Below, piece after piece: positions 2,563 to 22,152 of a stretch of 24,121 bases of DNA (position 1 is its first letter; each line of letters begins with the position of its first letter). A program made the position numbers and the translations under genes. Source of the stretch: a virus; the IMG/VR virus record IMGVR_UViG_3300032287_001770, positions 1-24,121 of that record, one strand, 5' to 3'. The notes under the pieces are model-generated. The model had not been told where the DNA came from. It searched no databases and saw only the letters and a program-made list of their open reading frames with translations.

Positions 2563-2565
2563 GGC

Positions 2566-2934: not shown

Positions 2935-2960
2935 GGTCTGCTCCTCTGCGCTCGTGGCGC

Positions 2961-4576: not shown

Positions 4577-4582
4577 GTGCCC

Positions 4583-7252
4583 TCAGCTCGCGAACTGTCG
4601 CGGCGCGACGTTGCCAGATGCGAACTCGATCACGTTGCCGCCTGCGCCGTCCTCAAGCGCGATGAACGCGTACCGCTCCTGCTGCGCCGCCACAAGCGTT
4701 GCTGAGCGGTACTCCAGCGTCAGCGTGCCCGAGGGCGCAGCGCCCGACAGCGTGGCGCGCACCGTGCGCGTCGAGGGCGTGACCGTGGTGACCGTGCCCG
4801 TTACCGACGTCGGCGACGTCGCATTGTACTGCGTGACCTGGATGACGTCGCCGCTTTGCCACGTGCTCGTCGTCGCGTAGCCCGTAGGCTGCGTCGCATC
4901 GAGGACGATGTCGTACGTACTTCCGCTGACGAGCGTCACCGACGAGATGAGCGAGGACGGCGCATAGCCCGCGACGCGCACCTGAGTCGTCAGCACCGTG
5001 AGCTCGACGATGGCGTCCAGCGGGCGCACGCGGCGTCCGATGACGACGCCCGACGCGAGAGTTATCCCGCGCCCGCCGTCGAGCGTATTCGGCAGCTGCG
5101 CGACCGTGACGGCTACCTGCGAGCCGATGACCGCGTCGATGGCATCGAGGCGGCACGCAACGGTGATAGTTTGGTACGCCGCGCCGAGCACGCCGAGCCA
5201 CGTCTGCGCCATTGCAAGGACTTCGCTGTACGGGATGGTGAGGTCGTCAGCCCACGACGAGCGCGGCTCGATCTTCATTGTGCGCGGCAGCGGGTTACGC
5301 GACAGCGCCGCCGAGTCGCGCACGACGAACGTGCGGCCGATGTGCTTTCCGGTCTTCGGGTCGAAGCCGGTCTTGAGCTGGATAGTGTTCAGCAGGCCGA
5401 ACGCGGACGGCTCGAAGCCCGGCATCTGCGCGCCGCTGAGGTTCTTTGTCTCGTCGACGGTGTAGCTCGTCGCCTCAGTCGCAGCGCCCACGCGGAAGGG
5501 CACGAACGACAAGCGCCCGTCAGTCGTGATCGACGGCACGAGGCCATAGAGCTTGCACTCCTCTTCGATCATCTTTGCCAGCGAGACGTCGCTGGTGCCG
5601 AGGTAGCTGCGCGATGCCAGCCAATCGCGACCGGCCGTGATGGATGCGATGGTCGTCGCGAGGCCGGTGTTGTCGATGTGCTCGGCAGTGACGAGCGGCA
5701 TCCGGCCAGTCGCCGAGTACTCTGGCGAGTCATTGATGAGGACGAAGATAAAATCGCTGAATGGCCCCGAGGTGATGTAACTGCGCGACGTTGTCACGCT
5801 CGGAACCGACGATGCGGTGTAGTAGCGGTCGACGACGCCGGGCCGAGGGCCATGCACGCGACGACGGCGCACGGTCGCGCGTCGCAGCGTTGAGTCCCAC
5901 GCCACCACGTAGTAGTCGCGCGTGAAAGCCTCTTTGCCGTCGAAGGCAGGCCAGTCGATAGAGATGGTATCGCCGACGTCCAGCGTCAGCGTGCCGCCGA
6001 TAAACACCGTGTCGGTGTATGCGTCGGTCTGCTCGCCAATAAATCCGCGCGGAACGGTGCCAGCGCCGTCAAGGCGCGAAAGCGACTGGCATTCGTAGGA
6101 ATCGCTTGAGCTGACTTGGTCGGTGCGTACACCATCGGACAGTCGGCGCAGAAACAGCGTGCTGATAAACTCAGGGTCGACGCGCGTCGTGCTGCCGCTC
6201 TCGCTATCCACTAGGCAATAGCGGTGCGACGCGCTTGGCGTCGAATACGTCAGCGTGTATGCGCCTGACGAGCCGGGGCGCGCAATAAGCGTCGGACGCT
6301 CGCCGCTTGTGCGATTCAACGCAGCCGTGCCCCACGTGCTCGAGGCCGTGCGAATCAATGCGTTCAGCGCGTCGCAGAACTCCTCTTGCGTCTCGTAGAA
6401 GCCTGCGAGGTCAGGGCCTCCGACCGTCGCGGTGTGCGCGATGGCGCTGTCGATGTCGTCGCCGCTGAGGATGCTGATTTGCAACGTCGGCGCGGTCTGC
6501 GCGTTGTAGTTGATGCCGCGCAGAATCGACGGCTCTGCGAGGTCCGCACCGAGCGTCTGGTCGAGCACGCTCGCGACGCTGTCGAGCTCGACCTCCCACA
6601 CGGTGAGGTCACGCAGTTTCGGCTGCGCCGCGACGATGCCACGCCAGACGAGTGTGCCCGTGCCCGTCTCGCCGTCGCCGTACGCGTAGAGGTACGCGAG
6701 GCTGCCTTCGATGCTGGGACGCCCGTTGTACTGGCCGGGCTCCTCGAACGTAATCTCAGGCCGCGACAGACCCAGCGTCGGGTCGACGTAGTGCGCCGTC
6801 GCGATGCTGTCGCGATAGCCACGCGTTCCGGTGCACGATGGCGCAGCGGTGCCGCCTCCGCTCGTGATTTTGAAGCACTCGTTTCCGAGGTAGAAGATGT
6901 CGCCGTTCGCGGTGTTCGTGTTCGCCATCGGGATGGCGACGGTGCCTGACATGACCGACGACGTGAGGTAGTTGATGCGCGACGGCTGGCGCACGAACGA
7001 GTCGCCGGTGCGGTGACTGCCGTCATCGACGATGCGTGCCGTGAAGCCCTGCGCACGCAGCTTGACGGCCGCAGGGTCCAGCGATTCCGACCACTGAATG
7101 CTGCGAGCCTCGAGGCCGCCAATGCGCGCGCGGTCCTCAGTGCCCGAGCCGACGAGATACGACGCGCTGACGAACTCAAGCGGGTGGCCCGCGATGACGA
7201 GGCGATACGCGATAGCCCCGCTGCCGCGCGCGATGACGTCGGCCCAGCTCAT
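4583..7252 (-). CDS. Large tail tip / baseplate hub-like protein
   Basis: At 889 residues this is the longest protein in the window. It lies two genes after the tape measure, where siphophages encode the large hub or central fibre-initiating protein that closes the tail tube. It is mostly beta-like. A central region (about residues 540-720) has SYLGTSDVS and KMIEEECKLYG segments and a GRLSFVPF motif, reminiscent of hub proteins that contain tail-protein-like domains. The C-terminal third is rich in Val, Thr and Ser. I chose ATG 7252 (MSWADV) because it overlaps the previous stop by ATGA; an ATG 11 codons earlier would overlap the previous gene further. The ribosome binding site is weak, so translational coupling is likely. 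The structural tail role is well supported by size and position; the exact hub role is inference. Confidence 0.65.
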   Translation of the reverse strand: MSWADVIARGSGAIAYRLVIAGHPLEFVSASYLVGSGTEDRARIGGLEARSIQWSESLDPAAVKLRAQGFTARIVDDGSHRTGDSFVRQPSRINYLTSSVMSGTVAIPMANTNTANGDIFYLGNECFKITSGGGTAAPSCTGTRGYRDSIATAHYVDPTLGLSRPEITFEEPGQYNGRPSIEGSLAYLYAYGDGETGTGTLVWRGIVAAQPKLRDLTVWEVELDSVASVLDQTLGADLAEPSILRGINYNAQTAPTLQISILSGDDIDSAIAHTATVGGPDLAGFYETQEEFCDALNALIRTASSTWGTAALNRTSGERPTLIARPGSSGAYTLTYSTPSASHRYCLVDSESGSTTRVDPEFISTLFLRRLSDGVRTDQVSSSDSYECQSLSRLDGAGTVPRGFIGEQTDAYTDTVFIGGTLTLDVGDTISIDWPAFDGKEAFTRDYYVVAWDSTLRRATVRRRRVHGPRPGVVDRYYTASSVPSVTTSRSYITSGPFSDFIFVLINDSPEYSATGRMPLVTAEHIDNTGLATTIASITAGRDWLASRSYLGTSDVSLAKMIEEECKLYGLVPSITTDGRLSFVPFRVGAATEATSYTVDETKNLSGAQMPGFEPSAFGLLNTIQLKTGFDPKTGKHIGRTFVVRDSAALSRNPLPRTMKIEPRSSWADDLTIPYSEVLAMAQTWLGVLGAAYQTITVACRLDAIDAVIGSQVAVTVAQLPNTLDGGRGITLASGVVIGRRVRPLDAIVELTVLTTQVRVAGYAPSSLISSVTLVSGSTYDIVLDATQPTGYATTSTWQSGDVIQVTQYNATSPTSVTGTVTTVTPSTRTVRATLSGAAPSGTLTLEYRSATLVAAQQERYAFIALEDGAGGNVIEFASGNVAPRQFAS

Positions 7253-8091
7253 GGCGCAGCCGTCGTCGCCGTGAGCACGCGACACACCATCGGGATCGTC
7301 CAGTGCCCATCGTAGTCAGCGGTGATTCGAGTCGGGTCGAAGTGCGCGCCCTCGCCGCGTAGCTTGTAGAGCTGGCCCTCGCCCTTCACCGACGTCGCGC
7401 GGTCCACGAGCTGAAACGGCAGCGTCGCGCGGCAGTGCTTGACGAAATCCTCCCACGTCCACGTCACCTTCGTCGCGCTGCCCACGTCAGCCCTGCGCAC
7501 AGCTGCGCCGCCGACTGAGCCGCTGGCGTTCCACTCGGCATCAGTCGGACCGGACTGCGTCTCGAAAGGCTGCGTCCAGTCGCGATACGTCGGCAGCTCG
7601 ACAGGGTGCGTCGAATACGCCTGCCCGTCGTCGCTCTCCGCGTACGAGATGCGCCCACCGGGCTCATACGTCTCATGCACTTGCGACTGGCCCGCGAGCC
7701 GCGCGACGATGAGGTACTTCGGGCGCTTCGTGCTGGTGTACGACGAGAACAAACTGAGGTTGCTTTCGAAGCCAAGGAGGTCGCGCATCACCGTGCCTGC
7801 CGCGCCTGTCCAGGTGACCGAGAATGCGCCCGCAGCGCTCAGCGTGTATTTCAGCGTCGACAGCGAGAACGTCACCGTGAGCCCGGCAATCTGCGTCTGC
7901 ATCGCCGTGCGGAACGACCCGATGGTGACGCCGTCCGCGCTGCCTACGACGTCGCCGTGCGCGTAGACGCCAGTCGCAAAGCCCATGTTGCCGCTGATGG
8001 TGCCCGCGATGACGGCCGCGTTCGTGCCGCTGATGGTGCCCATGCCGAGCGTCGCGAAATCCCACGCTGGCGAGTACAGGTCACGCGGCAT
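7249..8091 (-). CDS. Putative distal tail protein
   Basis: This 280-residue protein directly follows the tape measure gene, the standard place of the distal tail protein that joins the tube to the tail tip. The N-terminal half is rich in Gly, Thr and Ala with beta-like pattern. The C-terminal half has conserved-looking Trp and Tyr residues (YRDWTQPF, TWTWEDF, HWTIPM). I chose the ATG at 8091 because it overlaps the tape measure stop as TGATG, the same junction seen repeatedly in this genome; a GTG one codon earlier is an alternative. The ribosome binding site is weak (a G run). No specific family motif is recognised, so the name rests on synteny. Confidence 0.55.
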   Translation of the reverse strand: MPRDLYSPAWDFATLGMGTISGTNAAVIAGTISGNMGFATGVYAHGDVVGSADGVTIGSFRTAMQTQIAGLTVTFSLSTLKYTLSAAGAFSVTWTGAAGTVMRDLLGFESNLSLFSSYTSTKRPKYLIVARLAGQSQVHETYEPGGRISYAESDDGQAYSTHPVELPTYRDWTQPFETQSGPTDAEWNASGSVGGAAVRRADVGSATKVTWTWEDFVKHCRATLPFQLVDRATSVKGEGQLYKLRGEGAHFDPTRITADYDGHWTIPMVCRVLTATTAAP

Positions 8092-9662
8092 CACATCCCC
8101 CGACCGAGACGACCGTGCGCCTCGCTGATCATGCCGCTGATGTCGCGCCCGAGCTGCGCGCGGTCAGCCGCGTACACAAGCCCGCTGCTGCCCCAGTTGA
8201 TGACGACCGTCGTGCCCGCGCCCTCGCGAGCGCCAGCCGTCAGCGCAGGCCCGCCAGTGGCCGCAGCAGGGCCAGCGCCGCCACCGCCACCTCCACCGCC
8301 GAACGCGCCAGACGCAGCGCCCACGACGCCAGCAGCGACGCCGACAGCGGCCCACTTGCCAGCCTCAGCGAAGTGCAGCGCAGCACTAGGTGAGCCGACT
8401 GCGAGCGCGCCGAGGCCCATCGCCGTTGCTTTCAGTCCTTGGATGATGGCTTCGCTCGCCAGCGACTTCGCGATCTGTTTGACCATGTCCTGCATGGCCT
8501 CGCCGATGGAGCGGCTGCCGTCAAGCATCGCGTCGACGCTAGACTGCATCGCGGTTTCAATCGAAGAGAACACGGCGTCAGTGCTCTCTTGCAACAGCGC
8601 AGCCTGCTCGTCTTGCAGCGCTTTCAACACGTCGCGCTGTTCAGCGGCCACCTCGATTGCACGGTCCTTCGCTGCGTTCGACTCGTCGATTTCCTGCTGG
8701 CGCATCCGCGCGCGTACGTCGGCCTCGTCGGCCATCGTCTCTTCGTTCCACGCGATATCACGCTGAATCTGCTCCGCGATTGCGGCGCGCTGCTCCGCGT
8801 AGACGTCGACGAGCGCCGCCGTCGTGTCACGCACAGATTGCACGCGTGACGATCGATTGCGACGATCAGCTTCCTCTTGATTCTTAGCTGCCTCTTTCGC
8901 GGCCTCTTCGCGGATTTGCTCAAGCTCGATGTTCGCGCGGTCTTGTTCCTCAGCGACGGCCTGATTCTGCAAGCGCACACGATAAAGCGCGACCTGCTCC
9001 GCGCGCGTTTCTTCAGTCCGCAGCCGTTCAATCTCTGCCTGATATCGACGCTCATTTTCGAGGCGCGTGCCAAGACTCAGCGATCCCTCTGGTCCGCGCT
9101 GCTCAAGTGCCGCACGACGTTGACGCACCGTCTCTGCGTATTGCTCCGCTTGACGGGTAAACGCCTCCTGCTCAATCGATGTTCCGAGGCCCATCGCAAC
9201 GCGCGAGCGCGTTGACATCGCGCGGTTCGCTTCTTGTACCTTGGATACAAGGTCACCGAGCGTCGGGATGACTTGCTCTTTGATATCCTTCGCGGAGTCT
9301 TTGGCTTCCTTGCTGTACTCAGCCCACAATGACGTACCCGCAGAAACCGCGATGCTTAGTGCGCTGAGCGCGATGCCAAGCGGACCAAGACCAGCAGTCG
9401 TCAGCCCTTGAATGACGCCAGTCGCAGAGCCAGCCATCGTGACCAGCCCACCGAGTGCCGGGTTCAGTTTGCCGACAGCCTGACCAGCAAGGCCGAGCGC
9501 GCTGCCGTACTGCCCAATCTTGGTCTGCGCCGCTTGCGTCGCGTCGCCAACTTTGGTTGTGGCTGCCGCCGTTTGCGTTGCCGCTTGCGTAACGCCCTTG
9601 AGCGCGGTGGTCGCCTGCGAAGTATCGAACTCGACTTTGACGTGGATGTCCTGCTCAGCCAT
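8091..9662 (-). CDS. Tail tape measure protein
   Basis: This 523-residue protein has the classic tape measure composition. A short N-terminal region (EFDTSQATTALKGV) is followed by Ala/Thr/Gln-rich helix, a hydrophobic segment (about 68-112), and a long charged helical region (about 115-380) full of Glu, Arg, Ala and Gln. A second hydrophobic helical zone follows, then a Gly-run/Ala linker and a conserved-looking C-terminus. The protein spans the tail lumen and sets tail length. By the usual ratio of about 0.15 nm per residue, a tail of roughly 75-80 nm would be expected; this is inference. ATG 9662 is chosen because GGAGG lies 6 bases upstream; an adjacent GTG (9665) is too close to it. The helical middle looks less GC-rich than flanking genes. 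Confidence 0.85.
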   Translation of the reverse strand: MAEQDIHVKVEFDTSQATTALKGVTQAATQTAAATTKVGDATQAAQTKIGQYGSALGLAGQAVGKLNPALGGLVTMAGSATGVIQGLTTAGLGPLGIALSALSIAVSAGTSLWAEYSKEAKDSAKDIKEQVIPTLGDLVSKVQEANRAMSTRSRVAMGLGTSIEQEAFTRQAEQYAETVRQRRAALEQRGPEGSLSLGTRLENERRYQAEIERLRTEETRAEQVALYRVRLQNQAVAEEQDRANIELEQIREEAAKEAAKNQEEADRRNRSSRVQSVRDTTAALVDVYAEQRAAIAEQIQRDIAWNEETMADEADVRARMRQQEIDESNAAKDRAIEVAAEQRDVLKALQDEQAALLQESTDAVFSSIETAMQSSVDAMLDGSRSIGEAMQDMVKQIAKSLASEAIIQGLKATAMGLGALAVGSPSAALHFAEAGKWAAVGVAAGVVGAASGAFGGGGGGGGAGPAAATGGPALTAGAREGAGTTVVINWGSSGLVYAADRAQLGRDISGMISEAHGRLGRGM

Positions 9663-9665
9663 CAC

Positions 9666-10049
9666 TCACCTCCGCTGAGCCTCTGCCATCCGACGCTCCG
9701 ACTCGCGGCGCTCGCGCTCCGCTCGCAGGTCCATCGCTTCGATTGTGTTCTGCGCGCCGTCGATCTCGAGCAGCGCGTCGACGACGACCGCGAGCTGCTG
9801 GTCTACGTCGATCGCGCCGTGCGACCAGTGCCGACGCATCGCCATCGCAGCCGACACGACCGGGTCGCCGTACGCGCGCCACGGGCACGACGTCGGCGTG
9901 TCGTTGGTCATCCGGCCGATGCCGTTGCGGATGCGCTCGACAGCAGCGCCTAGGCCCGCGCTAGAGCCGCGACGCACCGCGACTAGCCGCTCACCGCCAC
10001 AGTCGCAGTCCCACGCGATACGCACGCTCCTAGCGTCCGCACGGGCCAT
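9666..10049 (-). CDS. Tail assembly chaperone, downstream (T-type) ORF, probably made as a -1 frameshift extension
   Basis: This 127-residue frame lies in the -1 register relative to the upstream chaperone ORF, immediately before the tape measure gene. That is the position and register of the T part of the lambda-type G/GT tail chaperone pair. Visible motifs are WDCDC (a Cys-X-Cys), a CPWRA segment near the middle and a charged helical C-terminus with RERRESERR. The first ATG (10049) comes 2 bases after the upstream stop but has no good ribosome binding site. The frame is open far upstream, past a C CCT TTC slippery heptamer at 10178-10172. A -1 shift there would add 168 residues, from 10172, to 157 of the upstream protein, for about 325 in total. 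Independent translation from 10049 remains possible. No enzymatic role is expected; these proteins bind the tape measure during assembly. Confidence 0.65.
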   Translation of the reverse strand: MARADARSVRIAWDCDCGGERLVAVRRGSSAGLGAAVERIRNGIGRMTNDTPTSCPWRAYGDPVVSAAMAMRRHWSHGAIDVDQQLAVVVDALLEIDGAQNTIEAMDLRAERERRESERRMAEAQRR

Positions 10050-10051
10050 GT

Positions 10052-10642
10052 CTAGCCCGCGACGGTGGTCGACGTGTCGGATGCGGTCGCCGTGTGGGTG
10101 TCCGCATGGGACAGGGACTGACGCGCCAGCACGAACGCCGAGGTAGCCGGAAGCGGCGCAAAGCCCTCGACGAAAGGGCCGAGTCTGCTCCGCGCGTAGG
10201 CCACCGCGCCAATCTCGTAGAGCGCTTCGATGCTCACGCATTCCATCAGGTAATCCAGCGCGTCAGCGTCGAGCGCGGGACGCCCGTCGTGCTGCTCGCG
10301 CGGGAAGATAGCCTCGCTCTTCCAGGCAAGCGGCGGGCACACCTCTGCGCGCACCAGCGCATAGGACAGCGCACGCAGCCAGCGTGACTCCGCAGTCGGC
10401 AGCGAGTCGCATTGAGCGCGCTCGTACGCACGCAGCGGGCGCAGCACAAAGACGCTTGCGCGCTTGCCCGCGACGTACTTGAGCAGCGCCTTGTCGCGCG
10501 TGCCGTAGCGTGCCTCATCGACCGTCTGGCCGACGTGCCCGAAGTGCCTGACGAAGTCGCGCCCCATCGCCGCGCGGTCAATCGCAGGGTCGAAGGAAAC
10601 GCAGCAATGGAGTTCGCGAGTCGGGTCGGATTCGTAATGCAT
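10052..10642 (-). CDS. Tail assembly chaperone, upstream (G-type) ORF
   Basis: This 196-residue protein sits between the tail tube and the tape measure genes, the invariable place of the first tail assembly chaperone. It is mixed helical, with a RHFGHVG segment, a YVAGKRASVFVLRPLRAYER segment and a Thr/Ser/Ala-rich tail without hydrophobic anchors. A GAGGAGG ribosome binding site lies 7 bases before the ATG, so it should be well expressed. At codons 156-157 (Pro-Phe) the sequence is C CCT TTC in the correct phase for -1 slippage into the downstream frame, which runs on to 9666. Unshifted translation ends at the TAG at 10054-10052. I see no recognisable family signature; the call rests on synteny and the frameshift signal. 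Confidence 0.65.
   Translation of the reverse strand: MHYESDPTRELHCCVSFDPAIDRAAMGRDFVRHFGHVGQTVDEARYGTRDKALLKYVAGKRASVFVLRPLRAYERAQCDSLPTAESRWLRALSYALVRAEVCPPLAWKSEAIFPREQHDGRPALDADALDYLMECVSIEALYEIGAVAYARSRLGPFVEGFAPLPATSAFVLARQSLSHADTHTATASDTSTTVAG
10135..10178 (-). promoter_or_regulatory. Candidate -1 programmed frameshift signal in tail chaperone gene
   Basis: The heptamer CCCTTTC (10178-10172) has the canonical X XXY YYZ form in the zero frame of the upstream chaperone ORF. Two bases later a two-tier stem can form: CGAGG (10169-10165) pairs with CCTCG (10043-equivalent arm at 10143-10139), enclosing an inner GCCG-CTTC-CGGC hairpin (10157-10146). The -1 frame is open from here to 9666. 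Frameshifting at this locus is well known in other phages; this heptamer's efficiency is untested. Confidence 0.6.
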
Positions 10643-10681
10643 ACGTGCGCCTCCTCAAGCGCAGTTCTGCGTGTGTGGCTA

Positions 10682-11947
10682 TCAGAAGATGTGAACGCGG
10701 AAGGCGCTGCGCTGCACGTCCGTAGATGGCGCGGCGATGGCTTCGTCGTTGCGGCCAGCCCACGAGACGAGGAAGCCATACAGGTCATTGGCAGGCGTGC
10801 GCGGCGGCACCACCGAGAGCTGCACGGTCGGCGCGCTAAGCAGCACGATGCCCGACGTCGTCATGCCGATCTGCTGGAACAGGCTGAGGTCGGTGCGATT
10901 CGTGTCTGCGGTGATCCAGTTGGTCGCGGTGTCGTCGTAGACCTGCACCTGACCCGTAATCGCGCGACCACGCGCGCGCTTCCAGCCGATGATGCCGCTC
11001 GACGCAGGCCCTTCCGGCGACGTGACCGGCAGATTTGCAAGCCCCGGCGTCCACGTCGACGACGAGTGCGACACGACGTTGCGCGTCTGCGATGCCGTGA
11101 TCGTGCCAGTGCCGAGGATGAGCTCGGACGTCATGTGCGCGATGGGCGAGAAATCGGTGATCGTCGCAGCTGCCAGCGACAACGTGCTCGTGCGCGCCCA
11201 CGACGCGCCCGTGAGCTGCGTGCTGAGCTTCGCGATCTGACCCTGCGTGATGTCGATCGACATCGTGCCCTGCATCCCGAGGCCGACGTACTCATCGCCG
11301 CTTTCCGCGCCTTCGATGAGAAACTGCAGCGTCGAGAGGAAGCCCGCGAGATTGTTGGTCAGGCCGAACGTCGTGGCCCAGATAATGGGCTCGCCAGTGA
11401 CAGGCGCAGCGCTGTGCGCGACCTTCGGCACGACTGCGTTTGCCGTACACGACAGAATCTCACGCGCCTCGTAAAGACCTGTCGACTGGATGCGCACGGC
11501 ATACGCGCCACCGGGCGCACCGAGCGTGTTGCCGTGGCCTGCCGTGACGTTGACGCTGGTCGTCGTGGAGCCTGCCGTGACGGCCGTCGCAGCAGCCTGC
11601 GGCGTGCCCTGGTACGCAGCGCCCATCAGCGCGGCGAGCAGACGGCCGAGTGCCCACGTCGTGGACCACGCGTTGTTGCCGTCTTGCGGTGCGCCCGTGC
11701 CTGCGAGATACGTCGTCAGCGCGAGCGTCGACGACTTCTTCGCGAGCACCATCTTGGAGTTGGTGTAGCTGTGCAGATACTGCTGTTGCAGCTCAGGCTC
11801 GAGATGGTCGGTGAGCGGGACGAAGGTGCCGCTGTTCTCGACAATCGGCAGGTCGAGAAAATTTGCAGGCGTGCCGGATTCATCGACGGCGAACGCAGCC
11901 TCAGCCGCGATTCGCGTACGCCCGAGAGCAGAAACTTGAACGGTCAT
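10682..11947 (-). CDS. Major tail tube protein
   Basis: This 421-residue protein precedes the tail chaperones and tape measure, the expected place of the major tail protein that polymerises into the tube. The sequence is Thr/Ala/Gly/Val-rich with beta-like alternation and no membrane segment. Features include an N-terminal RTRIAAEAAFAVDESG segment, a TTYLAGTGAP motif, a YDDT segment and a C-terminal RVHIF. It is longer than minimal tube proteins, so it may carry an extra surface domain; the Ala/Thr/Gly-rich segment at about 110-160 is a candidate. An AAGGAG ribosome binding site lies 7 bases before the ATG, in line with high expression. No sheath gene lies beside it, which argues against a contractile tail. 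The call is by synteny and composition. Confidence 0.75.
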   Translation of the reverse strand: MTVQVSALGRTRIAAEAAFAVDESGTPANFLDLPIVENSGTFVPLTDHLEPELQQQYLHSYTNSKMVLAKKSSTLALTTYLAGTGAPQDGNNAWSTTWALGRLLAALMGAAYQGTPQAAATAVTAGSTTTSVNVTAGHGNTLGAPGGAYAVRIQSTGLYEAREILSCTANAVVPKVAHSAAPVTGEPIIWATTFGLTNNLAGFLSTLQFLIEGAESGDEYVGLGMQGTMSIDITQGQIAKLSTQLTGASWARTSTLSLAAATITDFSPIAHMTSELILGTGTITASQTRNVVSHSSSTWTPGLANLPVTSPEGPASSGIIGWKRARGRAITGQVQVYDDTATNWITADTNRTDLSLFQQIGMTTSGIVLLSAPTVQLSVVPPRTPANDLYGFLVSWAGRNDEAIAAPSTDVQRSAFRVHIF

Positions 11948-14422: not shown

Positions 14423-15394
14423 CTACAAAATGCCGCCGTAGATACAGGGCCACATCCCGGCCGCGTACTGACCATCAGCGATGAGGCCGAAGGTCAGCGC
14501 GTCATTCTGCATGACGGTCGGGCTGCTGAGGTCGATGTCGAGCTGCTCACGCGGAGCCGCGCCCTCGACAAAGAACATCGGCTTTGCGCCGCCAGGGCCC
14601 TCGCCGACGAGGTACCAGTAGTCGTCCTGCGTGCCGACGATGCGCGGGTCGACGATGAGGTCGACGAGGCCGTTGTACGCGTTGCTGACTCCCGCGCTCG
14701 CGACGACCGCCGCACCAGCCTCGAGGCCGGTGTTGGCGACCGAGCGACCACGGATATCCATCTTCGTGATCTCCGCGCCGACAAGGCGGTTCTTCGGGCC
14801 GACGACGAGGTAGCGCGGCACGATGCGGAAGGGCTCGCCGTTCTCACGCTGCAGCGACGTCATCGACGCGAACGCCGTGTCGAAGGTCAGCGGGCTGAGA
14901 GCCGACGTGGTCTTATTGCTCTGATTGCCGCTCGGCCCGTTGGGGTGCGACGTCGAGAAGAGGTTGACGCCGTCGTAGCCGACAGGGCCGTCACCGCTGT
15001 TGAGGAAGAGTCCCTGATGCAGCACGTAGTCCTTGTAGGACTGCGCAGCGCTCATGAACTTGCGGACGCGCGCGGCGACGATTCCCGAGCGATCGTACTC
15101 TGCATCACGGCGACGGATCTTGAGCTGCACGGCCCACGTGGTGAGCAGCACGTTGAGGCGGTACGCGCGGCTCACGCCGGTCTGACGCGCGCCGTCGAAC
15201 TCGAGCCAGTTGCCGAGGAAGTCCTCGAGGATGATCGACGTGGTCGTGCCACCGTCAGCGGGGATCGTCTCGCAGAGCGCGTTGACGAGGCCGACGTCAG
15301 CGGACGACGTGAACAGTTCGTCGGCCATCGAACGGAAGACAGTTGCAGCCGCGTCAATGGCGGTCTGATTGATGACGTGTGAAGAGTCAGACAT
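14423..15394 (-). CDS. Major capsid protein (Mu gpT-like)
   Basis: This 323-residue protein matches the Mu-like major head subunit in size, place and features. The N-terminal helical region has ADELFTSSADVGL; there is a YRLNVLLTTWAVQLKIRRRDAEYD segment; a conserved-looking NLFSTSHPNG loop follows; and toward the C-terminus a LVVGPKNR...AGAEIT region precedes a long beta domain. The protein should take the HK97 fold and build the capsid shell. A good AGGAG ribosome binding site (6 bases before the ATG) fits high expression. It lies downstream of the protease/scaffold and decoration-like genes and upstream of a strong hairpin. The family assignment is by pattern from memory; length is normal. 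Confidence 0.85.
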   Translation of the reverse strand: MSDSSHVINQTAIDAAATVFRSMADELFTSSADVGLVNALCETIPADGGTTTSIILEDFLGNWLEFDGARQTGVSRAYRLNVLLTTWAVQLKIRRRDAEYDRSGIVAARVRKFMSAAQSYKDYVLHQGLFLNSGDGPVGYDGVNLFSTSHPNGPSGNQSNKTTSALSPLTFDTAFASMTSLQRENGEPFRIVPRYLVVGPKNRLVGAEITKMDIRGRSVANTGLEAGAAVVASAGVSNAYNGLVDLIVDPRIVGTQDDYWYLVGEGPGGAKPMFFVEGAAPREQLDIDLSSPTVMQNDALTFGLIADGQYAAGMWPCIYGGIL

Positions 15395-15427: not shown

Positions 15428-15850
15428 TCAGAGCGTCGCCGCGCCGCGAATACGCACCCAGCCAGCGGTGGTGGAGACGGCCTGGATGAGGTCACCGACC
15501 TTGACATCGTTGGTGCCGAGAGCGGCAGTCGTGACGAGGTCGCTGTCCGAGATGACGACGGCAGCGCCGTGCACGCCGACGAGCGTCGACGCCGCGCCGA
15601 GCAGCTCCTCGTGCCCAAACTTGACGTTGATGGTCGCGCCAGCGGCGGCCGAGACGACCGTCTCCGTGGCGATGCCGACGAACACGCACGAGGCGGTGTC
15701 AGCGCCCGGCAGCGCGAGGCCGGTGGACGACGTGAGCATCACGAGCGAGCCCTCGTAAATGGTGGTGCCGGTGGTGCAGGTGTACGTGGCGTACGAAGCG
15801 AGCGAATCGTTGCGCGTCTGACGCGCCGTCATTGCGGTGAGTGCAGCCAT
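15428..15850 (-). CDS. Capsid decoration-like protein
   Basis: This 140-residue protein lies between the protease/scaffold gene and the major capsid gene, the classic position of a head decoration or stabilisation protein. It is almost entirely Ala/Thr/Val/Gly/Ser-rich with beta-like alternation (EGSLVMLTSSTGLALPG, VFVGIATETVV). The ending (VKVGDLIQAVS...WVRIRG) is typical of small beta-barrel decoration proteins such as DUF2190-like proteins. The start is supported by AGGAG 6 bases before the ATG. It probably binds the outside of the shell; this is inference from place and composition. Confidence 0.7.
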   Translation of the reverse strand: MAALTAMTARQTRNDSLASYATYTCTTGTTIYEGSLVMLTSSTGLALPGADTASCVFVGIATETVVSAAAGATINVKFGHEELLGAASTLVGVHGAAVVISDSDLVTTAALGTNDVKVGDLIQAVSTTAGWVRIRGAATL

Positions 15851-15885: not shown

Positions 15886-16812
15886 TCACGCGTTGGAATT
15901 GCGAGCCGCGTGCTTGCTCAGCATCACGGCGACATGGTCATCCGCAGCCTTGCCACGAAGGCCAGCGGCCTTTGCGTCAGCGCGGAAAATGTTGACGAGC
16001 GGGTCAGTGCTCGACAGCTTGGCGACGCCGTTCTCGCGCGCGGCCTTCGGGCCGGTGACGAGTGCGCCGACAGGCGGCTGCGCGGTCGCGGGCAGCGCGC
16101 TGTAGATGTCGAGCGCCAGCGTCTCGTTCTGCTCGCTTGCCTTCACGAACGTGTCGCGCTGCGCCTCAGTGACGCGGCCCTCGCCGAGCAGCCGCGAGAA
16201 CGACGCCGCGATGCGAGCCGTGCGCTCAAGCGCCTGACGCTGCGCACGCTCCTGCGACAGCTCCGCGACCTGCGCCTGGAGCGTCTGCACCGTCGCCGCG
16301 AGCTCGACCGCGCGAGCCTTGTGCGCCGAGAGTTCCGTGGTCTGGCGCATCATCTGCGCGCCAGCGTCGGCGCTCATGCCGCTCACCGGACCAGCGACGA
16401 GCATCGCCGCAATCTGGTCGAGCTTCTCCGTGATGGCCGCGACGACGCCAGCCTCATCGAGTCCGGTCGCCTCCACGAGCTTGCCGAGCACCATCGTGCC
16501 AGCGGCCTCAGTAGCCTCTTCCGCGAGGTCGGAGACGTCGGGCACGCTCTCGACCATCTCATCGACGAGCAGCTCATCCGCGAGCTTGCGGACGCCAGCC
16601 GCGATGCGCGAGAGGCCCTTGACCTTCTTCTCGTCCATCATCATCTCAGCGACGCCCTCCGACGCGATTTCCGCGACGGGCATCGACTCCTCTGCCATCG
16701 CGCCAGCGAGCGCAACGAGCGCGTCAAAGGCCTTCTTCATCTTCTCCGGCGTGGCGTCCTTCTTGAGGCCGAGCGCCGTCGCGATTGCCATCAAAACCTT
16801 CGTGGGATCCAT
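15886..16812 (-). CDS. Nested in-frame scaffold protein from internal start
   Basis: ATG 16812 (MDPTKVLM) lies inside the protease/scaffold gene and in its frame. AAGGAG sits 7 bases before it, one of the best ribosome binding sites in the window. Translation from here gives a 308-residue protein that covers just the helical scaffold part and lacks the protease. Mu makes such a pair (I and Z) and lambda another (C and Nu3), so a free scaffold product is expected here. The start falls exactly at the boundary between the protease-like and helical parts, which supports it. Protein-level proof is lacking. Confidence 0.7.
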   Translation of the reverse strand: MDPTKVLMAIATALGLKKDATPEKMKKAFDALVALAGAMAEESMPVAEIASEGVAEMMMDEKKVKGLSRIAAGVRKLADELLVDEMVESVPDVSDLAEEATEAAGTMVLGKLVEATGLDEAGVVAAITEKLDQIAAMLVAGPVSGMSADAGAQMMRQTTELSAHKARAVELAATVQTLQAQVAELSQERAQRQALERTARIAASFSRLLGEGRVTEAQRDTFVKASEQNETLALDIYSALPATAQPPVGALVTGPKAARENGVAKLSSTDPLVNIFRADAKAAGLRGKAADDHVAVMLSKHAARNSNA

Positions 16813-17400
16813 TGCGAGACTCCTTGTGGATTTCCGCGACGGAGCCCCGACGCGGGAGAGAGTGATGGGCGTCATGCCCGGCAGAAATGGACTCGGCGTG
16901 AGCCCAAGTTCGTACAGCTCAGCGAGGCCCGCGCTCTCGCCGGTGACGCGGTCAATCGGCGCGAAGTCCACGACCACCGAGCAGAAGCGCTGCGCACCAA
17001 GCGCGATGCGGTCGGCTGCGTCCTTCGTCCATTCGACGTAGCCCCACAACTCGACGCCCTGCGCACCGTCGCGAATCTCAAGCGCCTGAATCCAACCAGC
17101 CGCGTCGATGGGAACGCCGAGGTCGTGGCGCGGGTGACCCCACAGCACAGGCACAGGCTGCTCGCCCATGTCGTAGAGACGCTTGATGTCCGCAAACACC
17201 GCGCGCGTAAATGCGAATGGCCCAGCGGGATGGCCGTTCCATTCGCTCTCATAGGCCATCTCGACCCACGAGCACGCAGCGTCCACGAGGAGCGGCGACT
17301 TCATCGCGGGCTTGATGCCGTCAGCGAACGCGCCCAGCGACGCACGCAGCGCGAGGATGCGGCGGTCAGCGAACGCGGTTGCAGTTTGCTTGGTAGCCAT
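15886..17400 (-). CDS. Prohead protease fused to scaffold (Mu gpI-like)
   Basis: This 504-residue protein has two parts. Residues about 35-190 resemble the Mu I-type prohead serine protease: LWGHP with His89, a GWIQALEI strand, WTKDAADRI, then RFCSVVVDF whose Ser141 aligns with the catalytic-serine site (YxSP in relatives). The usual Ser-Pro is replaced by Ser-Val. Residues about 197-504 are highly helical, Ala/Glu/Lys-rich with coiled-coil segments (QAQVAELSQERAQRQAL) and act as the scaffold around which the shell assembles. The GAGG ribosome binding site is 7 bases before the ATG. A strong internal start at codon 197 makes separate scaffold expression likely. The protease should cut scaffold and capsid proteins during maturation. 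The fusion is normal for Mu I. Confidence 0.8.
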   Translation of the reverse strand: MATKQTATAFADRRILALRASLGAFADGIKPAMKSPLLVDAACSWVEMAYESEWNGHPAGPFAFTRAVFADIKRLYDMGEQPVPVLWGHPRHDLGVPIDAAGWIQALEIRDGAQGVELWGYVEWTKDAADRIALGAQRFCSVVVDFAPIDRVTGESAGLAELYELGLTPSPFLPGMTPITLSRVGAPSRKSTRSLAMDPTKVLMAIATALGLKKDATPEKMKKAFDALVALAGAMAEESMPVAEIASEGVAEMMMDEKKVKGLSRIAAGVRKLADELLVDEMVESVPDVSDLAEEATEAAGTMVLGKLVEATGLDEAGVVAAITEKLDQIAAMLVAGPVSGMSADAGAQMMRQTTELSAHKARAVELAATVQTLQAQVAELSQERAQRQALERTARIAASFSRLLGEGRVTEAQRDTFVKASEQNETLALDIYSALPATAQPPVGALVTGPKAARENGVAKLSSTDPLVNIFRADAKAAGLRGKAADDHVAVMLSKHAARNSNA

Positions 17401-17404
17401 CAGG

Positions 17405-18250
17405 TCACCTCACGAAAGACGATGCGCCGAATCCCGGCGTCATCACAAAGCCAGCGGGAATGCTCTCGACGAAGTCCTTCGCGAGGCCCTCGTCGTCAAA
17501 CTCTTCTTGCGACACGGTGACCAGACTGCACCTACACATGAATCCCGCAGGCGGCGCGAGCACGCTAAACGCAGGATTGTCCGCGCGCCAGACCTTGCTT
17601 TCCATCGGCGCGTGTTCCGCTCGCACGCGATTGTCGCGCGCGGTGAACCATTGGCGGTAGGGCCGTGCGTCGATGACGTCGGGGTCGTTCATCTGCTGCC
17701 AGCGGCCTGCGCCATACGCGCTCGCGACGTTGGTGCGATAGACGTTCTCGAGATACGACGGGTCCGCAGGCGCGATGCCGAGCGTGATGCTCTGGTCATT
17801 CATCGCGCGAGAGAAGTCGCGCAGAGTCGAGCCCGTGTCGAGCGTGCGTTGCAGCTCATCGACCGCACGACGCGAGATGACGTCGAGTTGCTCGTCGGTC
17901 GCCATCGACGCACGCCGCCGATACGCGCGCAGCACTTCCTCAAGGATGGCCGGGTCACCACCGCGCTCGCGCCAGAACGCGACGGCCTCGTTGAACGGCA
18001 TCTTGAGAAATGACGGCCGCAAATCAGTTGCGAGCTGCCGCTGCGCGCCCATCGCGTCGAGCTCGACAAGCCGCACGAACATCTGGCCGGCGAGGTCGCT
18101 CTTGACGCTTGCTTGATAGATGAGCGCTTCGAGGTCCGGGTCGCCCTTGTACGCGGCGATAGCCTCGCGAATCGCGTCCTCTGCCGACGCTGCTCCCGCA
18201 GCACCCTCAGCAGCGCGCGCTATAGCCTCTCTGACAGGCGTGAAAAGCAC
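17405..18250 (-). CDS. MuF-type head morphogenesis protein (minor capsid), possibly expressed by -1 frameshift from portal
   Basis: Read from the only start codon in frame (GTG 18250) the protein has 281 residues. The C-terminal part (about 165-247) matches the Mu F / SPP1 gp7-like domain: YRTNVASAYGAGRWQQM, a WFTARDNRVRAEHA segment and the PPAGFMCRCSL ending with its paired Cys. Such proteins sit at or inside the portal and help DNA packaging or ejection. N-terminal residues about 35-62 (PDLEALIYQASVKSDLAGQMF) look like a helical domain that in related phages can be the C-terminus of DUF935 portals. GTG 18250 has no good ribosome binding site. The frame stays open 77 codons further upstream over the portal tail, past a slippery heptamer at 18418-18412. 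A portal-MuF fusion by -1 shift, of about 911 residues, would use this frame. Independent translation is possible but poorly signalled. Confidence 0.75.
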   Translation of the reverse strand: MLFTPVREAIARAAEGAAGAASAEDAIREAIAAYKGDPDLEALIYQASVKSDLAGQMFVRLVELDAMGAQRQLATDLRPSFLKMPFNEAVAFWRERGGDPAILEEVLRAYRRRASMATDEQLDVISRRAVDELQRTLDTGSTLRDFSRAMNDQSITLGIAPADPSYLENVYRTNVASAYGAGRWQQMNDPDVIDARPYRQWFTARDNRVRAEHAPMESKVWRADNPAFSVLAPPAGFMCRCSLVTVSQEEFDDEGLAKDFVESIPAGFVMTPGFGASSFVR

Positions 18251-18297
18251 GACCGCATCGAGGGTCGTCTCGGCTGCGACGACGTACGGACGGCCGA

Positions 18298-20139
18298 TTA
18301 CCGCGCGAACACGCGTCGCCTCTGCTTCGTCTGCGAGGGCGCGGACGTCACCGAACTCGAAGACGTCGTCGACAAGCTCGGCATCCCACCCGCCGAGCCC
18401 TGTGACGTCGAGAAAGGGAGCCCCGCGAGCGCACCCCCAGGCGCGTCTGTAGCGGGCGTGGCGACGTCGACCGGCGCTGCACTAGCCTCCGCAGGCGCAG
18501 CGGGCGTAGCGGGCGCTGAGGGCGCAGCGACAGGCGCTGGCGTCGCAGGCGTCGCAGGCGTCGCGGGCTGCGCGACTGAGCCATCCTCGCTGATGACCGC
18601 AGGCACGAAGCCCTGACCGACTGCGCCCATGATGCGCTCTGCGTCCTCGCGCGAGATCGGGAACGCAGCGACCATGATCTCGACGCCGCTCGCGCGCGGC
18701 AGCTGGCCAGTCGCGACCTGCGCCACGATGCCCATAAGCGCCTCGACCTGCGCGCCGTTGAGCGCCGTGTCGGATGCGCGTGCGGGCTCCGCGACGAGGT
18801 CTGTCTCTGGATTGAATGCGGGCGCAGCAGGCTCAAGCGGCAGGCCCGGCAGCATCGGCGCGGCAGCCTGCGCGACCTCTGCGATATCCTCGCCACCGTC
18901 CTCGACACTCCACGCAGGCAGGCCGAGCGACGAGCGCACTTCGTTGATGCGCACAGCGCCGACGTTGATGGCGTCAGCGGTAATCGGCAGCGTGTCGTCG
19001 AAGATCGTTGTGATGACAGGCAGCGGGATATCAGCGCGGCGCAGGTTGTAGTACGCGAGCCACCTCACGACGTCGCGCGTGATCGAGCCCCACATGAGCG
19101 TGGCGTCGAGCTTGCTGCCCTCGAGACGCACACCGTCGCGCGTCTCCGTGCTCGAGCGCGAGCCGTTCGCGCCGCTCAGGTAGAGGTCGGGCGACACGCC
19201 GAGCGACAGGAAAATCTCTTCGTTCAGCGACGCTCGCAGTTCTTTCCACACGCCCGTTGAACCCGCGCCCGCAGGGTCGATGATCTTGATATCGCTGGTG
19301 CCGCTCGTGACGCCGACCGAGTCGGCCGTGAGCTGCTGGAGGTCGTCGAGGATGCGCTGGCGCTGCGACGAATCCGACGACGCCGCCATCTGCGCGAGCA
19401 CGAGCGGATTGCCGAATCGCTCAGCGCCGACAAGCCAGAACGTCCATACGTTCCTTTTGAACATCCAGTAGAAAACACACGCGAGGAAATCGCCCTGATC
19501 CATTGGACGGCCGGGGTCTGTCCACGGCACGTGCGTAAGAAACTTCGCGGGGAAGTTTACGGTGTTGTACCACTGATAATCGAAGTCCCTGACCTCGAGA
19601 GTCCAGTCCTGCGCGTACCGCAAGTTGCGTGTCTGCACCGGCACAGGCTGCGGCATCCACGCGCCGTTCATGCGCGACCACACCAGCTCGTGCACCGAGA
19701 TGCCCATGCCGATGCCGTCGAGCACGCGCATCAGAAACGTCTCGCGAGCCTCAAGCGAAGAGAGCCATTCCTTCGTCAGCTCGACCAACTCCTGCGCTGC
19801 ACCGCGCATCTCAGGCGCGACGTCAGGCGGCATCTCGACAGCGTAGCGACGGCCTGCCACCGACGAGCGGCGCGTGGCGTACGCGCGACGTACGACAGGG
19901 TCACGGCGCATCTGCGTCGCCATGTCGGCCCAATACTCGTAGTTGCCGAAGTCGAGTTCACGCAGAGCAGTCGAGATGCGCCCCGGCGACACCGGCTGTA
20001 GCGCACGGCCCGTGATAGCGCTGAGAGGCTGCGGACGGATGACGCGCCCCATCTCAGGGATGCGCGTCACGGTGCCCATCGGCTCAGGCGTGGCGGCTGC
20101 GACGGTGCGTGTCGCGCGCGGCTTGCGGGTTGTCGTCAT
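18298..20139 (-). CDS. Portal protein (DUF935 / Mu gp29-like)
   Basis: This 613-residue protein forms the ring through which DNA enters and leaves the head. Family features include an N-terminal MRRDPVVRRAYATRRSSVAG segment, an ERFGNPLVLAQM segment, a helical core with LGVSPDLYLSGANGS, and a C-terminal LNGAQVEALMGIVAQVATGQLPR helix pair typical of DUF935 portals. A Pro/Ala/Thr-rich linker follows (about 515-560), then a Ser/Thr-rich tail with basic residues (RRR). GGAG lies 7 bases before ATG 20139; a more upstream ATG would overlap the terminase. Codons 575-576 contain C CCT TTC in slippery phase; the reading after a -1 shift runs into the MuF frame. The tail beyond that point is only 37 residues in the zero frame. 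Confidence 0.85.
   Translation of the reverse strand: MTTTRKPRATRTVAAATPEPMGTVTRIPEMGRVIRPQPLSAITGRALQPVSPGRISTALRELDFGNYEYWADMATQMRRDPVVRRAYATRRSSVAGRRYAVEMPPDVAPEMRGAAQELVELTKEWLSSLEARETFLMRVLDGIGMGISVHELVWSRMNGAWMPQPVPVQTRNLRYAQDWTLEVRDFDYQWYNTVNFPAKFLTHVPWTDPGRPMDQGDFLACVFYWMFKRNVWTFWLVGAERFGNPLVLAQMAASSDSSQRQRILDDLQQLTADSVGVTSGTSDIKIIDPAGAGSTGVWKELRASLNEEIFLSLGVSPDLYLSGANGSRSSTETRDGVRLEGSKLDATLMWGSITRDVVRWLAYYNLRRADIPLPVITTIFDDTLPITADAINVGAVRINEVRSSLGLPAWSVEDGGEDIAEVAQAAAPMLPGLPLEPAAPAFNPETDLVAEPARASDTALNGAQVEALMGIVAQVATGQLPRASGVEIMVAAFPISREDAERIMGAVGQGFVPAVISEDGSVAQPATPATPATPAPVAAPSAPATPAAPAEASAAPVDVATPATDAPGGALAGLPFSTSQGSAGGMPSLSTTSSSSVTSAPSQTKQRRRVFAR
18369..18418 (-). promoter_or_regulatory. 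Candidate -1 programmed frameshift signal joining portal to MuF
   Basis: Heptamer CCCTTTC (18418-18412) has canonical X XXY YYZ form in the portal frame. Immediately after it, TCGAC (18411-18407) can pair with GTCGA (18373-18369). This outer stem encloses a perfect 7-bp hairpin, GCTCGGC (18398-18392) with GCCGAGC (18382-18376). The -1 frame is open from here through the whole MuF gene to 17405. The same heptamer, phase and nested-stem layout occur at the tail chaperone gene. Confidence 0.55.
18539..18565. repeat. Short tandem repeat, 3 x 9 bases, in portal linker
   Basis: Three consecutive copies of GGCGTCGCA, the last with one change, encode the PAT-PAT-PAT stretch of the portal linker. It lies within a longer Pro/Ala/Thr-rich region that is probably flexible. 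Such repeats can change length by slippage. Confidence 0.8.
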
Positions 20140-20158: not shown

Positions 20159-21664
20159 TCAGCCCCAGTAGTTCTTCCGGCCGCGTCCATCGCGCGGCGC
20201 GTAATCGCGCGTGAGGTCTGCGCTCACGCGACGGCCAGTGCTCGCGACTGGCGAGCCGACGTGCATCTCTGAGAGCAAGTCGAAGGCCGCTGCGAGCGCG
20301 TCTACCTGGTCGTCGTGCGCGTCGTTCTGCCCGGTGAATCGCGCGACCTCGTCGCACAGGTCACGCGTCCACGCAGCGCCCTCGCGCACGAGCACGCGGC
20401 CTGCGTTCCACGCTGCGGCGAAGGGAGTTGCGCGGCTGTACTTGTCTCCGAGCGCGGGCTTGACGTCGACGCTGAGGCCCACGCCGCGAGGTGGCGGCAG
20501 CGCGAGGAAGTCAAGCGCACCACGGTCTGCGCCGCCTGCGTAAATGCGCGTCGCCGTGTGCGGCCAGCGCGATTTCAGTTCCGCGAGACGCAGCGCGAAG
20601 TCACTCGCACGCATCTGCTCGCGCATCACGTCGAGGACGTAGTACCGCGCATCCGGCCCGACACCGGCTTTGCCCATCACGACGGCCACCGACCAGTCAG
20701 CCGACGTCCGCGCGCTGTACGCGAGGTCGAGGCCGATCGCGCGCGAAAGCTCCGTGGGTGCGACTGCGTACGTCGTCGGCGATGCTGAGAACACCGCGCC
20801 GCCTCGTGCTCGAGGCTGGCCCATGTAGAGCGCTGCCCACTCGTACGGGCCGACCTCGCGCTCGCGCTGGCGCAGGAACTCACGCGGCCTCTGCGACGGC
20901 CAAAGCGACTCGTCGTCAGCGGTAATCGCAGGGAGGTTCACCGTCTCCCATCCATCACTTTCGAGGCGTCCAATCAGGTCGTCCGGGTGCCATCGAGTAT
21001 GGACCACCACACACGAGCCTGTCGGCGCGATGCGCGTAAGCGCCGTTGAGCGCAACCAGTCCTCGACCTTGTCGCGCTCGCGTCTGCTCTCGGCCTCTTC
21101 GCGGTTCTTGTGAGGGTCGTCGACGACTACGATCTGCGCCGCGTATCCGGTGAGCGGACCGCCGATGCCCGTCGCAAGCAGACCGCCACCCTCGACCAGC
21201 CGCCAGCGTCCAGCCGCGCTCGTGTCGTCGCGCAGCGCCAGCCCAGCCTCACGCGCAAGGTCGCGAATCTCTTTGCTGCGGTCGTGCGCGAAGTCGGCCG
21301 AATACGATGCGTAGACGACAGGCCACGTCGGCTGCCGCGACAGCGCCTGGACGATGCCGTGCTGAATCAGCGTCGTCTTTCCAAACTGCGCAGGCACCGA
21401 GACGCAAGCCCTGACGACTTCGCCGCGAATGGCGCGCTCGAAGAGCTCGGCCACCGGCGCAAGGTGATGCGGCGCAGACCAGCGCGGTGACAGCGCGGGC
21501 ACGTACTCCACGAGCGGCAGGCGCGCGCGGAGGTCGCGCTTCGTCGGAGACGCCTTCGCCTCAAGCTCTGCGAGCCTCAGCGCCGCCTGCGCTGCGAGAC
21601 TGCCCCTCGCCCGCTGTAGCTTGCGCGCCCGTATCTGCTCGCGGACGTAGCCGCCCTGCCCCAT
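20159..21664 (-). CDS. terL: Terminase large subunit
   Basis: This 501-residue packaging motor has an N-terminal ATPase and a C-terminal nuclease. The Walker A-type loop is PAQFGKTT (91-98), a variant without the usual Gly before Gln but with the key Gly-Lys-Thr. Walker B is VVVDD (179-183). A coupling-like segment (VVVHTRWHPDDLIGRL) follows. The nuclease part has GLDLAYS (Asp313) and HDDQVDA (450-456), whose acidic residues should bind metal. ATG 21664 is chosen because it overlaps the small subunit stop as TGATG and has GAGG 7 bases upstream; an upstream in-frame ATG at 21751 would overlap the small subunit by 88 bases. Length and motif order are normal for TerL. It is packed against the small subunit and portal, the usual packaging module. 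Confidence 0.9.
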   Translation of the reverse strand: MGQGGYVREQIRARKLQRARGSLAAQAALRLAELEAKASPTKRDLRARLPLVEYVPALSPRWSAPHHLAPVAELFERAIRGEVVRACVSVPAQFGKTTLIQHGIVQALSRQPTWPVVYASYSADFAHDRSKEIRDLAREAGLALRDDTSAAGRWRLVEGGGLLATGIGGPLTGYAAQIVVVDDPHKNREEAESRRERDKVEDWLRSTALTRIAPTGSCVVVHTRWHPDDLIGRLESDGWETVNLPAITADDESLWPSQRPREFLRQREREVGPYEWAALYMGQPRARGGAVFSASPTTYAVAPTELSRAIGLDLAYSARTSADWSVAVVMGKAGVGPDARYYVLDVMREQMRASDFALRLAELKSRWPHTATRIYAGGADRGALDFLALPPPRGVGLSVDVKPALGDKYSRATPFAAAWNAGRVLVREGAAWTRDLCDEVARFTGQNDAHDDQVDALAAAFDLLSEMHVGSPVASTGRRVSADLTRDYAPRDGRGRKNYWG

Positions 21665-22152
21665 CAGTGCGCCTCGTCGCCCTCGTCGGCGTCGCCCTGC
21701 GCATCGCCCTCGCCGACGCCAGCCAGCGCTGCCAAGAGCGCCGCGTACCACTGCGACGGCAGCACCTCGCGCGCGACCTCGAGGACGTCCTGCGCCGCTT
21801 GGTCCTGCGCTTTCAGCACCATCGTCTGACTCGGCGCGTATGCGTCAGGCATCATGCGCTCGAGCATCCACGCTCGCGCCTTCCAGTCTTGAATCTCGCC
21901 GTTGTCGGTAGGCGTGGCTTGCAGCCGAATGACGTCCAGCGTCTCGGCCTCAAACTCTGCGCGAGCGCGAGCGACGGCCGCAAGGAACTCCGAGTATTGC
22001 GCGTGTCCGCGCTCGGCCTCTCGCCGCCAATACTCAAGGTTTCGTTTGTCGACGCCTTCCGCTTGCACGGCTGACTCGACACGCAATCCTGCCCTCACGC
22101 GGGCGCACACACGCTGCGTGAACGCCTCCGTGATCATGCTCGGTCGTGCCAT
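21664..22152 (-). CDS. terS: Terminase small subunit
   Basis: This 162-residue protein precedes the large subunit and ends in the stop that overlaps its start. The N-terminal part (about 8-50) looks like a helix-turn-helix DNA-binding region (AFTQRVCARVRAGLRVESAVQAEGVDKRNLEYWRR pattern). Longer helices follow (ARAEFEAETLDVIRLQ), suited to the oligomeric ring of small terminases, and the tail is acidic (GDADEGDEAH). It should recognise viral DNA and hand it to TerL. The start overlaps the stop of a possible short upstream ORF as TGATG, with GAGG about 9 bases upstream. The combination of fold, length and synteny is convincing. Confidence 0.8.
   Translation of the reverse strand: MARPSMITEAFTQRVCARVRAGLRVESAVQAEGVDKRNLEYWRREAERGHAQYSEFLAAVARARAEFEAETLDVIRLQATPTDNGEIQDWKARAWMLERMMPDAYAPSQTMVLKAQDQAAQDVLEVAREVLPSQWYAALLAALAGVGEGDAQGDADEGDEAH

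Follow-up and report, generated by a model that had tools for sequence, protein, structure and literature searches.

The DNA analysed here, called the window below, is a virus record of 24,121 bases (IMG/VR record IMGVR_UViG_3300032287_001770, positions 1 to 24,121). On its minus strand a Mu-like portal gene is followed by the coding region of a MuF minor head protein, which lies in the -1 frame of the portal and has its 3' end at 17405. The subject of this report is the junction between the two, a candidate site of programmed -1 ribosomal frameshifting, at which the following features were recorded.

18298-20139, minus strand: portal open reading frame (ORF), Mu gp29-like (Pfam Portal_Mu, E 2.5e-46)
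18432-18438, minus strand: internal Shine-Dalgarno (SD)-like element GGGGGTG (GGAGGTG in most relatives), with near-invariant bases
18412-18418, minus strand: slippery heptamer C_CCT_TTC (P-site CCT to CCC, A-site TTC to TTT)
18301-18411, minus strand: 0-frame tail past the heptamer, 37 codons, disordered, with 0-frame amino acid identity at the level of the third frame
18380-18397, minus strand: downstream block CTCGGCGGGTGGGATGCC, 16 of 18 bases invariant among 35 distinct close relatives
17405-18418, minus strand: -1 frame extension (linker, portal C-terminal-like domain, MuF), an open frame kept in relatives from residue 1 (PF)
18248-18250, minus strand: GTG, sole conventional start of the MuF frame and unlikely to be used, at residue 57 and within helix 44-58 of the model; not conserved
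18074-18280, minus strand: -1 frame residues 47-115, homologous by hhalign to the C-terminal domain of separate Mu-like portals
17522-17860, minus strand: MuF domain (Phage_Mu_F, PF04233; Pfam E 7.6e-17; phrog_220, minor head protein, E 1.6e-31)

The codons CTC CCT TTC place the heptamer C CCT TTC (18418-18412) in exact X_XXY_YYZ phase, 37 codons ahead of the portal stop and within the overlap of two open frames; it is the sole in-phase heptamer of this form in the portal gene. Between 18481 and the stop at 17405-17407 the -1 frame is open throughout (337 codons counting from the heptamer), and the MuF domain, immediately downstream of the portal, scored 62.5 bits against a Phage_Mu_F cut-off of 29.6. 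A frame scan found GTG 18250 to be the only ATG, GTG or TTG in the MuF frame, with 77 open codons upstream. Heptamer, open frame with MuF and lone start codon had all been described in an earlier reading of the letters without database searches (the sequence-only reading), and each was recovered here. The predicted fusion has 911 residues (576 shared with the portal plus 335), with a predicted junction peptide of ...ALAGLPFLDVTGLGGWDAELVDDVF... in the shifted product. In E. coli the same heptamer, C_CC.U_UU.C, causes frameshifts at a high level (PMC4066793).

Relatives were collected in two IMG/VR scans, which gave 48 loci that cover the junction (49 sequences with the window; 35 with distinct complete MuF genes). 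Identity to the window falls to about 57% in MuF and to about 39-47% in the portal, and CCCTTTC stands unchanged in the same phase in all 49. Profile scans added distant relatives (MuF 28-41%, portal 22-31% identity to the window); all of those that cover the junction have C_CCT_TTC, C_CCT_TTA or C_CCT_TTT in the same phase, and their -1 proteins begin with PF. About 60 related viral sequences carry the signal. Elsewhere in the portal genes of 29 representatives, in-phase CCCTTT occurred at 0 of 11,571 codon positions. No in-frame portal-MuF fusion was found in the window's clade. Among cultured phages there was no close relative (best tblastn match, 33% identity over 52% of the query). A genome scan with the close family alone gave no match; with a wider profile a single contig was found, that of an uncultured Myxococcales metagenome-assembled genome, which holds one of the distant relatives (L111). 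In annotated Mu-like phages MuF mostly starts, with ATG or GTG, at the portal stop or a few bases before it, and none of those checked had CCCTTT near the portal-MuF junction.

Coding signals change frame near the heptamer. GC content by codon position tracks the portal frame as far as about 18609 and the MuF frame beyond about 18430; the Pro/Ala-rich linker in between gives no clear signal. In composition the 0-frame tail thus resembles non-coding DNA, and the -1 frame resembles coding DNA from the heptamer on. Between the portal stop and GTG 18250, where coding-like third positions had been noticed from the letters, third-position GC in the MuF frame is indeed 0.81. In divergent pairs, synonymous-codon identity over the first 15 codons past the heptamer was 0.961 (0.638 expected); the excess declines along the overlap and is gone beyond about codon 39, at the portal stop. 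Over nucleotides (nt) 45-117 of the overlap, the -1 frame had an amino acid identity of 0.707, compared with 0.587 for the 0 frame and 0.586 for the third; over nt 120-168, past the portal stop and ahead of GTG 18250, the values were 0.904 for the -1 frame and 0.543 for the 0 frame. Since identity is highest in the -1 frame, this is the frame selected as protein. The site is thus conserved and the shifted frame is under selection. By the same comparisons the 0-frame tail is not under amino acid selection, and the constraint around the heptamer acts at the nucleotide level.

The portal ORF runs from ATG 20139 to the TAA at 18298-18300, giving 613 residues with in-frame termination (a second in-frame ATG lies at 20190), and belongs to Portal_Mu (PF06074) with 159 bits against a curated cut-off of 23.9. 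Its AlphaFold model is folded to about residue 423 and in a helical module at residues 460-511; residues 522-613 are disordered, and the slip site (residues 575-576) falls inside this disordered tail. The helical C-terminal domain of Mu-like portals was not found in the portal's own reading frame; it sits in the -1 frame. There, residues 47-115 were aligned by hhalign with the C-termini of eight separately encoded Mu-like portals (probability 91%, E 1e-6), and the shifted frame therefore holds a linker, a portal C-terminal domain and MuF. For the -1 product, AlphaFold gave a model of mean pLDDT 84 that is folded from about residue 20. A fold search of the MuF model in BFVD returned minor capsid and head morphogenesis proteins, and one in PDB returned nothing significant. 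The 0-frame product resembles a portal that lacks its usual C-terminal domain, the shifted product a complete portal with MuF attached.

The helical module (ALNGAQVEALMGIVAQVATG...AERIMG; window about 18606-18761) was present in the window and in some relatives and missing from many close relatives. It is predicted to be an optional C-terminal module preceding the linker.

Ahead of the heptamer, the SD-like element is 13 nt away when measured from the 7-mer and 15 nt when measured from its GGGGG core. Its duplex with the anti-Shine-Dalgarno (anti-SD) sequence was computed at -11.7 kcal/mol, a strength equalled at 0 of 290 control positions in the same gene. An element complementary to the anti-SD lies 5' of the heptamer in 29 of 29 representatives, and in 21 of them it is unmatched in strength by any of 290 upstream controls from the same gene. 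Core and heptamer are in most cases 10-16 nt apart, and at the extremes 7 and 18 nt. In the close clade the near-invariant nucleotides are GG[A/G]GGTGCG upstream, CCCTTTC itself and CTCGGCGnnTGGGATGCC downstream. The downstream block at 18380-18397 has GAT at a synonymous site in 35 of 35 relatives; it may be a clade-specific stimulator or have another role. The SD-like sequence upstream is the likely stimulator of the shift.

Taken together, the portal gene very probably carries a programmed -1 ribosomal frameshift composed of C_CCU_UUC and the internal SD-like GGGGGUG, in which the unslipped product would be a truncated portal and the slipped product the 911-residue portal-MuF protein, their ratio limiting the subunits that bear MuF. 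GGGGGUG, 13-15 nt upstream, would stimulate slippage of the ribosome at C_CCU_UUC. Ribosomes that do not slip would end 37 codons on, leaving a portal truncated ahead of the Mu-like C-terminal domain; those that slip would make the portal, a flexible linker, the portal C-terminal domain and MuF as one chain. A fixed ratio of the two would give a portal ring with a limited number of MuF-bearing subunits, and the minor head protein would reach the procapsid covalently and in low copy. This agrees with the frameshift put forward in the sequence-only reading, in that heptamer, phase, SD-like element and open -1 frame have been kept across large divergence; in the alignment of homologues that it had proposed, the two genes are not separated and several members have no MuF start. 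Its remembered likeness to a portal C-terminus holds in the hhalign comparison. Two refinements are suggested, namely that the shifted frame supplies, besides MuF, the C-terminal domain of the portal itself and that the upstream SD-like sequence is likely to be the stimulator.

Several points weigh against this interpretation. The frameshift product is a prediction from sequence, and the occurrence of slippage, its rate and the mixed ring are inferred from the observed anatomy, conservation, -1 frame selection and domain content. SD elements that stimulate -1 shifts are spaced by 9-14 nt (review, PMC5009743); the spacing in the window (15 nt from the core, 13 nt from the 7-mer) is at or just past that range, and that of the family spans 7-18 nt. 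For the window's own host, pairing of the element with the anti-SD is presumed. A downstream stem-loop or pseudoknot commonly accompanies such sites, although bacteria can do without one; no conserved RNA structure was found downstream here, where RNAalifold gave weak helices with little covariation; local folding energies there were not consistently low, standing out only in two relatives, L121 (z -3.2) and L108 (z -2.0). Finally, a low-copy role for MuF is suggested by analogy with phage SPP1.

The sequence-only reading had named a real or sequencing-induced disruption of the frame as the main alternative. A recent indel, or an error of sequencing or assembly, would then have split a single in-frame portal-MuF gene of the kind known from other phages (PMC7302621) and from some relatives of the phage RcapMu (below). 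The identical break at the same heptamer was found in about 60 independent contigs from many samples and in deep relatives, with the nearby synonymous sites frozen; because a sequencing error cannot recur identically in about 60 contigs, this explanation was rejected and is given next to no chance. It is also very unlikely that MuF is translated separately, whether from GTG 18250, from a non-standard start near the SD-like element or by reinitiation past the portal stop. Ordinary Mu-like phages do begin MuF by overlap of stop and start, an SD-like sequence is present upstream, and some relatives have a GTG at residue 56-57. Against this, the start is not conserved, and at least 12 close loci have no ATG, GTG, TTG or CTG in the MuF frame from the upstream stop through residue 70; no start codon stands at the usual spacing from the SD-like element; and protein selection in the -1 frame acts on the residues that precede the GTG. 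GTG 18250 lies inside a predicted helix, so that starting there would cut the fold, and with it the portal C-terminal domain, making it an unlikely MuF start. MuF was not found as a separate gene with its own start in the window or its relatives, and an independent start was rejected on the lack of a conserved start codon and on the structural model.

Slippage of RNA polymerase rather than of the ribosome is a likely contributor in the RcapMu-like phages, with their runs of eight or nine A. It is highly improbable as the source of the second product in the window's clade, where identical bases at the site come only in threes or fours and the SD-like element upstream works in translation only. 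More weight, while still unlikely, is given to frameshifting that is near-complete or merely tolerated, the fusion being the sole functional product and the truncated portal a by-product. The 0-frame tail without amino acid selection and the absence of the usual C-terminal domain from the truncated portal would fit this. A one-base indel would fix the fusion, yet no member of the clade has one and the signal is kept intact; in the RcapMu-like clade, too, the A9 run is preserved in members whose portal and MuF already share a frame, suggesting that having both products is of importance. Programmed frameshifting to two products remains our preferred reading.

The surrounding genes on the same strand are listed here.

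20159-21751, minus strand: terminase large subunit, upstream neighbour of the portal (phrog_38, E 1.5e-79)
15886-17400, minus strand: head maturation protease-like, downstream neighbour of MuF (phrog_328, E 7.7e-23)
15428-15850, minus strand: virion structural protein
14423-15394, minus strand: major head protein
beyond the major head protein in gene order, minus strand: Neck1-like connector protein

In the tail half (window 1429-10788) most large ORFs had no PHROG match at E 0.01, which leaves a poorly charted tail module; the exceptions were tape-measure-like (8091-9665) and tail protein-like (1429-2562).

A second arrangement was found in RcapMu, whose GenBank record describes the portal as 'shorter than related mu-like phages; possible +1 frameshift would allow readthrough' and gives MuF a start without a good ribosome-binding site. 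The portal frame of RcapMu ends just past a run of eight A (A8), and the -1 frame encodes a portal C-terminal domain (probability 96%, E 1e-9) and MuF. The run is A9 in 23 relatives, most of which need -1 slippage to join portal and MuF; in L188, L189, L190, L191 and L193 the two are in frame through the same A9. The junction run lies at the following positions.

L172, 2350: RcapMu-like A8-A9 run
L173-L195, mostly about 3000: RcapMu-like A8-A9 run

Two of the fused proteins were tested, and both (L188, 1636-4548; L190, 1639-4386) are single ORFs with Portal_Mu, Phage_Mu_F and the nuclease toxin-like PBECR2. The A-run is likely to be an independent, slippage-based route to a mixture of portal and portal-MuF, in which the second product is possibly made by polymerase slippage.

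Other loci showed comparable features. In L163, an unrelated MuF locus for which no relatives were found for comparison, AAA AAA AAA (2904-2912) stands in portal phase at the very point at which the MuF frame becomes open in -1, with GGAGGGG about 20 nt upstream of the A-run. In L164 (3731) and L065 (3614) the upstream gene has, towards its end, T TTT TTT and T TTT TTC, respectively, in portal phase, and the MuF frame is open in -1; these two, like L163, may be further cases of frameshifting.

The chances are about even that frameshifting at the portal-MuF boundary is convergent in Mu-like phages. The clade with SD and C_CCU_UUN and the clade with A8-A9 would then both build mixed rings in which a few subunits have the portal C-terminal domain and a covalent MuF (in some RcapMu-like phages also PBECR2), and the rate of slippage would set the MuF copies per capsid and break the 12-fold symmetry.

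Portal rings are taken to be made of 12 identical subunits. If the frameshift is real, a mixture set by frameshifting predicts portals of broken symmetry, accounts for the placing of a low-copy minor head protein at the portal and enlarges, by a new gene pair, the small set of phage virion proteins that arise from programmed frameshifting. Automatic annotation of such phages would then give a portal cut short with a spurious tail and would misplace the start of MuF. The C_CCU_UUN signal, very deeply conserved and apparently driven by an SD-like element, should be useful for mechanistic work.

The sequence-only reading had thought a portal-MuF fusion made by frameshifting to be new. The literature searched held no report of one besides the annotation note of RcapMu (most subscription papers, including the 2011 RcapMu paper, were outside the search, and an earlier mention is possible); that note and the parallel A-run qualify the claim. 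The class of mechanism is known, and portal-MuF as its target is apparently unreported in the searchable literature.

Among known systems, E. coli dnaX resembles the window in having an internal SD ahead of an X_XXY_YYZ heptamer in a coding gene, with a shift in the -1 direction (PMC5009743). It differs in using A_AAA_AAG with a stem-loop, whereas no conserved 3' stem-loop was found in the window's clade, and in that its shift truncates a polymerase subunit, whereas that of the window would extend a phage portal. The tail assembly chaperones gpG and gpGT are likewise two structural proteins with a common N-terminus, made in a set ratio by a -1 shift; the heptamer and gene are unrelated, and the product is a tail chaperone, not portal or MuF. 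Frameshift-extended virion proteins, as predicted for the window, are also described for the capsid of Lactobacillus phage A2 and the tail proteins of Listeria phage PSA and SPP1 (PMC5009743, PMC6316719); these are major capsid or tail proteins, with no portal-MuF product. In SPP1 the portal gp6 targets the MuF protein gp7 to the procapsid by non-covalent binding, at 1-2 copies per capsid (PMC5576092, PMC6316719); unlike in the window, the two are encoded by separate genes. Portal and MuF share one polypeptide in Microbacterium phage clusters EA3, EA5, EA8 and EB (PMC7302621), where a single frame fuses every subunit, whereas in the window the frames are split by the putative frameshift. The RcapMu clade comes close: a conserved slippery run marks the end of the portal's 0 frame, with the portal C-terminus and MuF encoded in the -1 frame. 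It is set apart by its A8-A9 homopolymer, by the lack of any SD-like element seen there and by members in which the two genes are in frame.

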